This document shows positions 23,052 to 25,259 of a DNA stretch of 64,000 bases, one piece after another. The stretch is from Catenulispora sp. EB89 (lineage in GTDB: Bacteria; Actinomycetota; Actinomycetes; Streptomycetales; Catenulisporaceae). The position numbers were made by a program, and so were the translations under genes. Where the stretch lies: the NCBI RefSeq assembly GCF_041261445.1, contig NZ_JBGCCU010000001.1:620001-684000 (forward strand), written 5' to 3'. The stretch's first letter is position 1, and each line of letters opens with the position of its first letter. The notes below the pieces were generated by a model. It saw only the letters and a program-made list of their open reading frames with translations. It was not told the DNA's origin and did not search any database.

Positions 23052-23504
23052 ATGCCCCACTCCGATAAGTACGGCGAGGACAGCGTCGTCAGCTTCGCCG
23101 TCCGCCACGTCTGGCTCGGCATGCGCGCCGCGATCGAGGACGAGCTGGCCGAGTTCGGCCTGACCGTCCCGCAGTTCGCGACCCTGATGATGCTGGAGGG
23201 CTCCCCGGGCCTGAGCATCGCCGAGGTCGCCCGGCTGTGCGGCAGCACCCGGCAGTCCGCGAACGAGATGGTCGCCGGCCTGGAGGCGCACGGCCTGGTC
23301 GAGCGCGCCCCGCATCCGACGGACCGGCGCATGTACCAGCTGCACGCGACCGAGGCCGGCCTGGCGCTGTCGGCCAAGGCCCGGCCGGCCGTGCGCCGCC
23401 GCGAGGACGAGCTGGAGGCCGGGCTCAGCACCGAGGTGCGGCAGGCCGCCCGGGAGTGGATGGCGGCGCTGGCGGCGTCGTGCGGTGCGGCGGACAAGAA
23501 GTAA
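23052..23504 (+). CDS. MarR-family transcriptional regulator
   Basis: 150 residues. The winged helix is at about 50-105 with LSIAEVARLCGSTRQSANEM as recognition region and APHPTDRRMYQLHATEAG as the wing, both classic MarR features. The ATG at 23052 follows a loose GAGGCGAGG. It is divergent from the DHA2 exporter and upstream of the leader-peptide/hydrolase unit, which has its own promoter at 23512-23541. It probably senses a phenolic or drug-like ligand. Confidence 0.92.
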   Translation: MPHSDKYGEDSVVSFAVRHVWLGMRAAIEDELAEFGLTVPQFATLMMLEGSPGLSIAEVARLCGSTRQSANEMVAGLEAHGLVERAPHPTDRRMYQLHATEAGLALSAKARPAVRRREDELEAGLSTEVRQAAREWMAALAASCGAADKK

Positions 23505-23511
23505 AACCCTG

Positions 23512-23541
23512 TTGCGGGCTGCCGGAGCGGACGGCTACCTT
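23512..23541 (+). promoter_or_regulatory. Sigma-70-type promoter of the leader-hydrolase unit
   Basis: TTGCGG (23512-23517), an 18-nt spacer and TACCTT (23536-23541) predict a start near 23548, about 30 nt before the leader ORF. Confidence 0.55.
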
Positions 23542-23577
23542 GCGTACGCCGTGACCGAAGCGAAGGAGGTGAGACCC

Positions 23578-23631
23578 ATGAAGGCGGTATCGACGTGGGT
23601 GCTCCCCGTGCTGTCACGGGCAGGCGACTGA
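23578..23631 (+). CDS. 17-residue leader peptide
   Basis: ATG to TGA encodes MKAVSTWVLPVLSRAGD. It is preceded by AAGGAGGTGA, a full-length match to the 16S anti-Shine-Dalgarno, at ideal spacing; this is far stronger than the ribosome-binding site of the downstream hydrolase. Its codons 8-11 contain GTGCTCCC, repeated exactly at 23662-23669 beside the hydrolase ribosome-binding site. This is the arrangement of a ribosome-mediated attenuator, in which translation or stalling on the leader changes folding downstream. The peptide itself is probably not functional as a product. Confidence 0.6.
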   Translation: MKAVSTWVLPVLSRAGD

Positions 23632-23675
23632 CACAGCGGTCGTCGGGAGCGCCGGATTCCAGTGCTCCCGAAAGG
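23599..23675 (+). promoter_or_regulatory. Attenuator with mutually exclusive stems
   Basis: Stem A: CCCGTG/CACGGG (23605-23620, 4-nt loop) inside the leader ORF. Stem B: TCGGGAGC (23643-23650) with GCTCCCGA (23664-23671), directly followed by AAGG of the hydrolase ribosome-binding site. GGGAGC (23645-23650) can pair instead with GCTCCC at 23601-23606 in the leader ORF, giving an alternative fold. Ribosome position on the leader would choose between them. Confidence 0.55.
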
Positions 23676-23683
23676 TGACTGCC

Positions 23684-24487
23684 ATGTCTTCTTCACTTCT
23701 TTTCACCAGTGACTTCTCCGCGGACGGCGTCCGCGAACGCGACTTCACCGTGGGCGGCGTCCCCGGTGTCCTGTGGTCGCCGGACTCCCGTCCCGACCGC
23801 GCACCGCTGGTCCTGATCGGCCACGGCGGCGGCATCCACAAGAAGGCGCCGGCCAGCGCGGGGCGGGCCCGCCGCCTGGTGCTCGGCTGCGGGTTCCACG
23901 CCGCCGCGATCGACGCGCCCGGCCACGGCGACCGGCCGCGGACCGAGCACGACGAGCGCGAGCTCGACGCGATGTTCGCGGCGCGCGACGCCGGCGAGCC
24001 GGAGGGCCCGGTCATCGTGCGCTACAACGCTCATCTGGCCGAGCAGGCCGTGCCGGAATGGCGGATGACCCTGGACGCGCTCCAGGAGCTGCCGGAGATC
24101 GGCGCCGACGGACCGGTCGGGTACTGGGGCATCAACATGGGGACGGCGACCGGCGTCCCGCTGGTCGCTTCCGACGCCCGGTTCACGGCCGCCGTGTTCG
24201 GCCAGCACTGGCCCGACTTCCTGGTCGAGCCGGCCCGGCGGATCACGATCCCGATCGAGTTCGATCTGCAGTGGGACGACGAGCACATCCCGCGCTCGGC
24301 CGGGCTGGAGCTGTTCGACGCCTTCGCCTCGGCGGAGAAGACGCTGCACGCCAACGCGGGGCGGCACAAGGAGCTGCCACGGTTCGAGGCGGACAGCGCC
24401 GTCCGGTTCTTCGCCCGGCACTTGGTCGGCGGACTCGGAGCCGACTCCGCGTCAGAGCCCGTGGCCCCGGCGGTGGGCGCCGCGTGA
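23684..24487 (+). CDS. Alpha/beta hydrolase-fold protein lacking the nucleophile serine
   Basis: 267 residues with a dienelactone-hydrolase-like layout: LVLIGHGGGIHKKAP (oxyanion region), AAAIDAPGHGDRPR, and the nucleophile elbow written GYWGINMG. The usual GxSxG serine is replaced by Asn (codon AAC), so ordinary esterase chemistry is unlikely. An acidic residue follows in FDLQWDDEHIP and a His in NAGRHKELPRF. It sits behind a leader-peptide attenuator and next to a MarR/DHA2 exporter pair, suggesting an induced stress or drug-response role such as ligand binding. Alternatively it is a degenerate enzyme. The ATG has AAAGG 8 nt upstream. Confidence 0.8.
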   Translation: MSSSLLFTSDFSADGVRERDFTVGGVPGVLWSPDSRPDRAPLVLIGHGGGIHKKAPASAGRARRLVLGCGFHAAAIDAPGHGDRPRTEHDERELDAMFAARDAGEPEGPVIVRYNAHLAEQAVPEWRMTLDALQELPEIGADGPVGYWGINMGTATGVPLVASDARFTAAVFGQHWPDFLVEPARRITIPIEFDLQWDDEHIPRSAGLELFDAFASAEKTLHANAGRHKELPRFEADSAVRFFARHLVGGLGADSASEPVAPAVGAA

Positions 24488-24539: not shown

Positions 24540-25259
24540 TCAGCCGGCGGCGTGGTTCCCCAGGGACTCCTTGGTGACCGACCCCATCGAGACCGCGGAG
24601 ACCCGGCCCTGCTGGTCGAACTGCACCGACGCGGTCGCCCCGCCGGGCAGCTCGGCGCTGATCGTGTCGCCCTCCTGCCGCCACGGGATGCCGAAGTGGT
24701 GGAAGTAGCCGGCGACCACCTCGTACGCCGAGCGGTTGAAGAACTGCGCCCCCTGCATCAGCAGTCGGGGCAGCGCTATCGGATCGGGCGCGGCCACCGG
24801 CACCTGCGGGTCGTCCGGCACCATGTACAGCCGCCCGGTCTCGTTGGCCTGCACGCCGATGTAGCCGTCGGCGCGCAGCACGCCCATCGCCCCGAACGCC
24901 AGCATCTCCGCGGCGTACCGGGGGTCTTCGAAGCCCGACAGGTCGACCAGTTCCTCGGCGAACTCCGGCACGCCGTGCTCCTGCCCGAACGCCCGCAGCG
25001 CCTCGGCGGCGGCCACCACCGGCAGTTTGCCGAACCCGGGGTTGGCCCAGCCCCACAGCCAGGAGCCCTCCGAGGTGTCGAAGCTGCCGAGCACGCTGAT
25101 CCGCAGCTCCCGCCCGGACTGCCGGTACCGGCGCTCGTCCAGGTTCACCGTCCACGGCCCGATCGGCAGGAACTCGTTGAACTCCTCGATCTGGCGCATG
25201 CCCCAGGCCGCGTGGGGCTCCGCCATACGGAGGAAGGCATCGCTGAACGCAGAAGTCAC
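24540..25259 (-). CDS. DUF6882-like hypothetical protein
   Basis: 239 residues, soluble, no signal peptide. Aromatic-rich segments include EGSWLWGWANPGF, LVDLSGFEDPRYAAEM and FFNRSAYEVVAGYFHHFGIPW, which I associate with the uncharacterised DUF6882 family of actinobacteria. GTG at 25259 follows TACTGT (25266-25271) by 6 nt. Function unknown; neighbours offer no pathway. Confidence 0.7.
   Translation of the reverse strand: MTSAFSDAFLRMAEPHAAWGMRQIEEFNEFLPIGPWTVNLDERRYRQSGRELRISVLGSFDTSEGSWLWGWANPGFGKLPVVAAAEALRAFGQEHGVPEFAEELVDLSGFEDPRYAAEMLAFGAMGVLRADGYIGVQANETGRLYMVPDDPQVPVAAPDPIALPRLLMQGAQFFNRSAYEVVAGYFHHFGIPWRQEGDTISAELPGGATASVQFDQQGRVSAVSMGSVTKESLGNHAAG

Follow-up and report, generated by a model that had tools for sequence, protein, structure and literature searches.

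A conserved leader RNA with a short open reading frame and mutually exclusive helices upstream of an alpha/beta-hydrolase-fold gene: a probable translational attenuator in actinobacteria

The RNA described here is the leader of a gene encoding an alpha/beta-hydrolase-fold protein in Catenulispora sp. EB89. It lies within a stretch of 64,000 nt (contig NZ_JBGCCU010000001.1 of assembly GCF_041261445.1, positions 620,001 to 684,000 of the forward strand) that is referred to as the window; coordinates are those of the window, and all the leader features are on its + strand. The leader contains a short open reading frame (ORF) and four strands that can be paired in mutually exclusive ways. It is probably a translational attenuator, reading where a ribosome is held on the leader ORF. 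The same RNA is found upstream of several other gene families.

The proposed switch is based upon competition between strands. When the leader is free of ribosomes, strand 1 would pair with strand 2, freeing strand 3 to pair with strand 4. The 3:4 helix, together with a further helix (E), would hide the ribosome-binding site of the hydrolase gene, giving the OFF state. A normally elongating ribosome would cover strand 2, and again the 3:4 helix would form. A ribosome held on approximately the first two codons would cover strand 1, with strand 2, beginning 18–19 nt downstream, just exposed. Strand 2 could then capture strand 3 during transcription, and the downstream ribosome-binding site would stay open; this is the ON state. 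The likely signal would be a block of initiation, or of formation of the first peptide bonds, such as is caused by lincosamide, streptogramin A and pleuromutilin drugs.

Organization of the leader

The leader Shine–Dalgarno sequence AAGGAGGTGA (23563–23572) is followed by the leader ORF of 17 codons (MKAVSTWVLPVLSRAGD, 23578–23631), running from ATG at 23578 to TGA at 23631. An earlier examination of the DNA made without database searches (the sequence-only reading) had proposed this ORF and called its ribosome-binding site perfect, and direct reading of the sequence bears out both, together with the coordinates. The expected transcript starts in the 5′ arm of an outer helix A (CCGTGAC, 23549–23555; 90.2% of cells paired in alignment A1, described below), whose 3′ arm is GTCACGG (23613–23619) from the pairing in the alignment. 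Strand 1 (GAGACCCA, 23571–23578) has strand 2 as its partner (98.6% of cells paired). Strand 2 (GGTGCTCCC, 23598–23606) includes the sequence GCTCCC; its GGG begins at 23597, 19 nt after the leader start.

Strand 3 (GGGAGCGCC, 23645–23653) can be paired with strand 2 to form the ON helix or with strand 4 (AGTGCTCCC, 23661–23669) to form the OFF hairpin; in A1 98.9% and 88.4% of cells respectively are paired. The two exclusive pairings that had been proposed are thus present, strand 3 matching either a segment of the leader or the segment GTGCTCCC (23662–23669) that abuts the hydrolase Shine–Dalgarno sequence GAAAGG (23670–23675). The latter is bulged or paired in the OFF hairpin fold. The lower part of this hairpin is helix E, with a 5′ arm GCGGTCGTC (23636–23644), in which four of six outer pairs have changes on both sides and native arms pair better than swapped ones, and a 3′ arm GGTGACTGC (23674–23682) that is assigned from the fold, the alignment and the arm-swap test below. 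The hydrolase-fold gene follows (23684–24487, from ATG at 23684 to TGA at 24487; 267 amino acids). The region 23555–23700 folds better than all of 200 dinucleotide shuffles (z = −4.45).

Conservation and distribution

Relatives of the hydrolase-fold protein were collected by a protein scan of GTDB contigs, and the best 80 of 156 were taken as the hydrolase loci. The protein of the window is 94% identical to that of Catenulispora rubra. A leader ORF is present at all 80 loci, recognized by script at 79 and by eye at the remaining one (L036). The genera carrying it include Streptomyces, Kitasatospora, Microbispora, Planotetraspora, Actinomadura and Hamadaea. The sequence-only reading had allowed that leader and pairings might be absent upstream of orthologous hydrolases; when checked, both pairings as well as the leader are conserved there.

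Alignment A1 comprises 82 leaders, being that of the window, 77 of the 80 loci (L001, L072 and L075 are omitted) and four further loci. The leader Shine–Dalgarno sequence, GAGACCC, GGGTGCTCCC, GGGAGC and the region of the hydrolase Shine–Dalgarno sequence are all nearly invariant. The usual peptide is MNAVSxWVLPL followed by a variable tail. A covariance model (R1) was built from A1, for which the E-values are rough. At E ≤ 0.01 per genome, a match is present in 334 of the 391 genomes belonging to the order of the window, which we take to be Streptomycetales, and a single genome may contain as many as five. Among 296 genomes sampled across the phylum, 13 have a match at E ≤ 1e-5, including six that lie outside the order. 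The genome containing the window has two copies, the second being located upstream of a GNAT gene (L143).

No Rfam family matches the window above threshold, nor does any match 23480–23720 up to an E-value of 10, and a known RNA family was rejected as an identity for the element. At seven loci of other classes the only Rfam match is a cobalamin riboswitch elsewhere in L005 (RF00174, 2064–2201 on the − strand, 40 bits). No description of this RNA element was found in the open-licence literature.

Gene families downstream of the leader

A further 107 loci were studied, 77 chosen from the R1 and related scans and 30 that scored best in the scan of the order. Classes were assigned by tblastn against one reference each. 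The downstream gene is of the GNAT class in 34, is related to PrmC in 21, belongs to the subfamily of the window hydrolase (hydA) in 17, is Rox in 17, belongs to a second hydrolase subfamily (hydB) in 14 and is patatin-like in 2; since the loci were picked over a range of scores, these counts are not frequencies. Two loci (L168 and L209) are without a class, and L138 coincides with L089 of A1.

Rox is a rifampin monooxygenase. All four proteins tested pass the NCBIfam cut-off of 800 (802.4, 809.1, 802.6 and 833.1), and the remaining 13 are assigned by similarity; 16 of the 17 are 75–82% identical to the reference at L175. One of the methyltransferases passes PrmC_rel_meth (TIGR03704; 414 against a cut-off of 248.8), and one patatin-like and one GNAT protein score above Pfam cut-offs. 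L193 was placed in the patatin class because of its 70% identity to L186 across 177 amino acids. Although R1 was built from hydrolase leaders, its best matches are mostly leaders of Rox: the 30 best (L111–L140) comprise 16 upstream of Rox and 14 upstream of hydA. In contig C1 of genome G232 two copies of the leader lie ∼5 kb apart on opposite strands, one (L175) upstream of Rox and the other (L127) upstream of hydA, at 393930–394080 (−) and 399164–399314 (+).

The ORF that follows one of the GNAT genes is the initiation factor IF-1, as checked against the family. An IF-1-like motif occurs on either strand of the fetched stretch at 27 GNAT loci (of 35 then called GNAT, now 34). At L146, L166 and the 25 others this proximity suggests that the acetyltransferase gene may share an operon with a paralog of an initiation factor.

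Covariation of the OFF hairpin

In A1 the OFF structure has 89.0% of cells paired and eight pairs with changes on both sides; as many are found in 9 of 500 shuffles, and its covariation score is reached by none of the 500. The arms were also tested by comparing each locus's own pair of arms with swapped arms; this test and the folding of full-length leaders by class used 155 of 157 loci with a recognized leader start, under the class assignment that preceded tblastn. Swapped arms are as good as the native OFF arms in 0 of 2000 permutations for hydA (84 loci) and for GNAT (34 loci), and in 4 of 2000 for PrmC (20 loci; here the swapped mean includes failed duplexes and is not an energy, and the permutation count stands). 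Outer helix A is positive only in GNAT, and fails in hydA, hydB and PrmC.

Folding of the nascent transcript

The switch was calculated for a transcript cut just after strand 3, with the footprint of the ribosome forced to be unpaired. For the 82 leaders the mean probability of pairing between strands 2 and 3, P(2:3), is 0.04 in the absence of a ribosome. Placing the P site on codon 1 raises it to 0.83, and on codon 2 to 0.72; it falls to 0.06 at codon 3 and is 0.00 for codons 4–14. In the window the values are 0.99 at codons 1 and 2 and 0.00 at codons 3–14. Over codons 1–8 the other classes have the same shape. Thus for 17 Rox leaders P(2:3) is 0.00 when free of ribosomes, 0.91 at codon 1, 0.87 at codon 2 and 0.01 thereafter. 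The result depends on the footprint; with a small footprint codons 3 and 4 also switch, and with the largest it is mainly codon 1 that does so (28 of 82 loci). At full length the 2:3 switch persists in the PrmC class (0.58–0.62 versus 0.13), and in hydB it is weak (0.17 versus 0.00).

A putative WblC-type promoter

A candidate promoter (23503–23541) comprises an A-rich box AAAA (23503–23506), a −35 element TTGCGG (23512–23517), a spacer of 18 nt and a −10 element TACCTT (23536–23541). Given the spacing of 7–8 bp to the transcription start in section 10 of PMC7157823, transcription is expected to begin at ∼23548–23549. The promoter had been described as complete; a scan with the sigma-70 consensus gives no matches to it, and it does fit a relaxed form of the WblC motif, which is GAAAWY N3 TKGMNN N16-19 TANNNT in the same section. 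The relaxed pattern occurs upstream of hydA in 68 of 85 loci (11 of 14 among the best 30 matches), GNAT in 23 of 34, Rox in 15 of 17 and hydB in 10 of 14, and upstream of none of the 21 PrmC-related or 2 patatin-like genes. Its rate in shuffles, run on the earlier class loci and the alignment, is 0.000. The loci are related, so that these counts are not independent. A putative promoter of the WblC/WhiB7 type probably supplies the transcript under translation stress.

Points weighing against the switch

A number of results weigh against the translational attenuator. Several concern the helices. In hydB 975 of 2000 permutations are as good as the native OFF arms, and all four helices tested fail. 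When the OFF structure is slid by −1 or −2 it has 10 or 8 double-change pairs respectively versus 8 in register, with only 38–41% of cells paired there (36–44% across the slid versions). The ON helix is almost invariant, and 433 (hydA), 638 (GNAT), 2000 (hydB) and 238 (PrmC) of 2000 permutations equal its own arms. A pooled test is positive (1 of 2000), but this mixes the classes; within every class both the 2:3 and 1:2 helices fail. Covariation does not prove the ON helix, and the lack of variation in this helix would be consistent with a double role of the sequence. Of the two stems for which covariation had been suggested as a check, the OFF hairpin covaries in hydA, GNAT and PrmC and not in hydB, and the ON helix is too invariant to be judged.

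Others come from the folding calculations. Towards the end of the ORF the mean P(2:3) rises again, to 0.18, 0.66 and 0.61 at codons 15, 16 and 17, so that ribosomes on the last two codons also allow the 2:3 pairing. In the nascent RNA of the window P(2:3) is already 0.68 without a ribosome. At equilibrium in the full-length leader a held ribosome gains more than 3 kcal/mol at the hydrolase site in only 1 of 82 loci, and in the window the cost of opening the site rises, from 5.1 to 9.2–10.0 kcal/mol, with the ribosome at codons 1–2. In hydA and GNAT the OFF hairpin prevails regardless of the ribosome, and 3:4 overtakes 2:3 within ∼30 nt of the start of strand 3. Because neither class has a switch at full-length equilibrium, a kinetic trap would be required for the ON state, and its persistence is a prediction of the model.

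The remaining points concern the stress signal. The strict WblC pattern is found upstream of only 5 of 85 hydA loci (none in the best-30 set), 3 of 34 GNAT, 2 of 14 hydB, 0 of 17 Rox, 0 of 21 PrmC and 0 of 2 patatin loci. The ribosome is not the target of rifampin, which makes Rox a less than obvious gene to place under a ribosome sensor. The attenuator put forward by the sequence-only reading is upheld as to a conserved leader with exclusive pairings, and is weakened by the lack of a switch in hydA at full-length equilibrium.

Spacing of the RNA and the leader peptide

The offset of strand 2 from the leader start is 19 nt in 82 of 84 hydA leaders and in all 17 Rox leaders, and 18 or 19 nt in 33 of 34 GNAT and 21 of 21 PrmC leaders. 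In hydB (14 loci) it is 19 nt in nine and 16 nt in five, and it is 20 nt in both patatin-class leaders. The reading frame across strand 2 is not fixed, encoding WVLP in hydA versus HGCS or RGCS in most GNAT leaders. The strand 2 nucleotides lie in another frame in 21 of the 34 GNAT leaders and in a third in the two of the patatin class. As the frame varies and the distance stays at 18–19 nt in most loci, the nucleotides and their spacing are kept rather than the body of the peptide.

This bears upon an attenuator of the erm type, in which a drug together with a specific nascent peptide (such as WVLP) would arrest the ribosome inside the leader. Conservation of the peptide is good within hydA, with tryptophan at codon 7 in 80 of 84 leaders and alanine at codon 3 in 80 of 84. 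All four alanine codons are used there, suggesting some coding constraint at that position. Three frames are nevertheless used across strand 2 over the classes, where an erm-type arrest peptide would have one, and ribosomes on the inner codons 4–14 give no 2:3 pairing in the calculations. Stalling driven by the peptide body is therefore unlikely, and we consider an erm-type mechanism improbable. The stalling on the leader that had been envisaged as the switch is retained as a hold at about codons 1–2, predicted from the nascent RNA. A leader responding to amino-acid starvation was rejected; the listed peptides show no run of one codon.

Leaders with non-canonical start codons

In five classes (hydA, GNAT, Rox, hydB and patatin) the leader begins with ATG or GTG, these being the only starts sought by the scripts for hydA and for the best 30 loci. 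The 21 PrmC-class leaders start with ATT (17), ATC (3) or GTC (1). R1 matches this class weakly (E ∼2e-8 to 5e-4 per genome), and the leader core is nearly letter-identical to that of hydA. Starts of this kind, with a near-perfect ribosome-binding site, are seen at L199, L201–L208, L210–L221, L222–L251 and 20 of L252–L281. Of 99 genomes of the order, 45 contain an exact pattern demanding ATT or ATC, for which the reversed control gives none. Thirty of its loci were fetched; all 30 lie upstream of a PrmC-related gene, and seven coincide with the 21. A search beginning from the protein family found a PrmC-related gene above the cut-off in 43 of 45 genomes, and of 30 loci fetched 20 have a leader recognized by the script, starting with ATT (13) or ATC (7) and never with ATG or GTG. 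The other ten are made up of four degenerate forms and six without such a ribosome-binding site; the six include both loci of the genus of the window.

Initiation factor 3 (IF3) represses the starts of infC (ATT in Escherichia coli, ATC in Streptomyces) and of sigR (GTC), according to PMC5472188. Having starts of the kind that IF3 represses suggests that the PrmC sub-class may read the fidelity of initiation. A related alternative is a sensor of the initiation state proper, in which a near-perfect ribosome-binding site loads the 30S subunit, and slow or IF3-blocked initiation is the signal rather than elongation stalled by drugs. Persistence of the 2:3 switch in full-length PrmC leaders and the IF-1-like ORFs near GNAT genes would accord with this, as do the PrmC-class start codons. 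It is at odds with the ATG and GTG starts of the other five classes, and with the ten PrmC-related genes lacking a script-recognized leader. It is improbable, about on a par with the erm-type mechanism.

Least probable is that the ORF is incidental to transcription attenuation or to an untranslated structural element (a riboswitch or protein-binding leader): in its favour, the C-terminal half of the peptide is less strictly conserved than the RNA, but Rfam gives no match, and the near-perfect Shine–Dalgarno sequence, the start codon and their spacing are all conserved. Transcription attenuation was rejected, there being no intrinsic terminator on the + strand of 23450–23750. The translational attenuator sensing a ribosome held at the first codons remains the probable reading. 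A bolder form of it, put forward tentatively, is that the leader is a portable actinobacterial RNA sensing the state of initiation and placed before unrelated stress genes. The 18–19 nt would be a built-in ruler setting strand 2 just outside an initiating ribosome independently of the reading frame, and the sub-class with ATT, ATC or GTC starts would read IF3-controlled fidelity, not drug stalling.

The hydrolase-fold protein

The AlphaFold model of the protein has an alpha/beta-hydrolase fold (predicted local distance difference test score (pLDDT) 88.1, predicted template modelling score (pTM) 0.87). Neither Pfam nor NCBIfam has a family matching it at E ≤ 0.001. The closest solved structure is a cold-adapted metagenomic esterase (4ao6–4ao8; phmmer 5.2e-34, Foldseek 9.6e-20). 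The two are alike in fold, but the esterase has serine in GLSMG, whereas the window protein has asparagine (Asn151) in GINMG; the protein was correctly described from its sequence as a hydrolase fold without the catalytic serine. The residue is asparagine in 80 of 81 aligned proteins and glycine in one, and the acid and histidine of the triad are kept (Asp199 in 81 of 81, His228 in 80 of 81). With asparagine replacing serine in 80 of 81, a serine-esterase mechanism is unlikely, and binding or unusual chemistry are candidate functions. We infer that the protein is of benefit to the cell. Three relatives of ∼50% identity (L104, L108 and L110) have GYSGW or GYSGG where hydA has GYWGINMG, and may have a shifted nucleophile.

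Neighbouring genes

A MarR gene (23052–23504) is the 5′ neighbour of the promoter and leader. Together with a DHA2 exporter it had been taken as a sign of a drug response. MarR is present at only 2 of 80 loci, both from Catenulispora (two loci, L003 and L073, have less than 1000 nt of upstream DNA), and the exporter is found at high identity at the same two, with three weak matches elsewhere. Confined to 2 of 80 loci, this neighbourhood does not explain the leader, and an operon logic of MarR and exporter was rejected. The presumed drug link rests instead on the WblC-like promoters and on the Rox genes that carry the leader.

A gene for a DUF6882 protein (24540–25259, − strand) is convergent with the hydrolase gene. 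The sequence GCCTGTCTGGA occurs within 300 nt upstream of the hydrolase gene, just upstream of the promoter, in 8 of the 80 loci from several genera (L004, L006, L023, L039, L042, L054, L063 and L067); a mobile element may have its terminus there.

Discussion

If the proposed mechanism is correct, one RNA cassette couples many actinobacterial stress and resistance genes, including Rox, to ribosomes that are stuck at initiation, and the leader is a translational layer of control beside WblC. R1 then provides a sequence handle for finding further genes of translation stress, and the conserved hydrolase-fold family with asparagine at the position of the nucleophile would be a likely translation-stress protein. 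Sensing of IF3 by a leader ORF, if it occurs, is testable with published infC strains.

In the translational attenuators of erm genes it is a leader ORF that exposes or masks the downstream ribosome-binding site, and arrest by drug and peptide occurs at an inner codon. The logic of the leader ORF is shared, but the present leaders vary in frame and are predicted to respond to a ribosome at the first codons only. The IF3-gated starts of infC (ATT, ATC) and sigR (GTC), as described in PMC5472188, use the same set of codons as the PrmC-class leaders. The difference is that there the codon starts the main protein, and here it starts a leader ORF.

The closest known systems are the attenuators of the Streptomyces ABCF genes, are5sc and tiaA. 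As described in PMC12421871, their leaders encode MLV and MVGDDDISG, are stalled at the start codon by lincosamide, streptogramin A and pleuromutilin drugs, are linked to the WblC regulon and are predicted to act by a terminator and antiterminator. A short leader ORF is common to both, as is the hold at the start codon, in our case as a prediction. Unlike are5sc and tiaA, none of the 105 assigned loci of the 107 has an ABCF gene. Compared with these systems, the present leader has no terminator that could be found and is a different RNA; it is independent of reading frame, is reused before unrelated gene families and includes a class with non-canonical starts.

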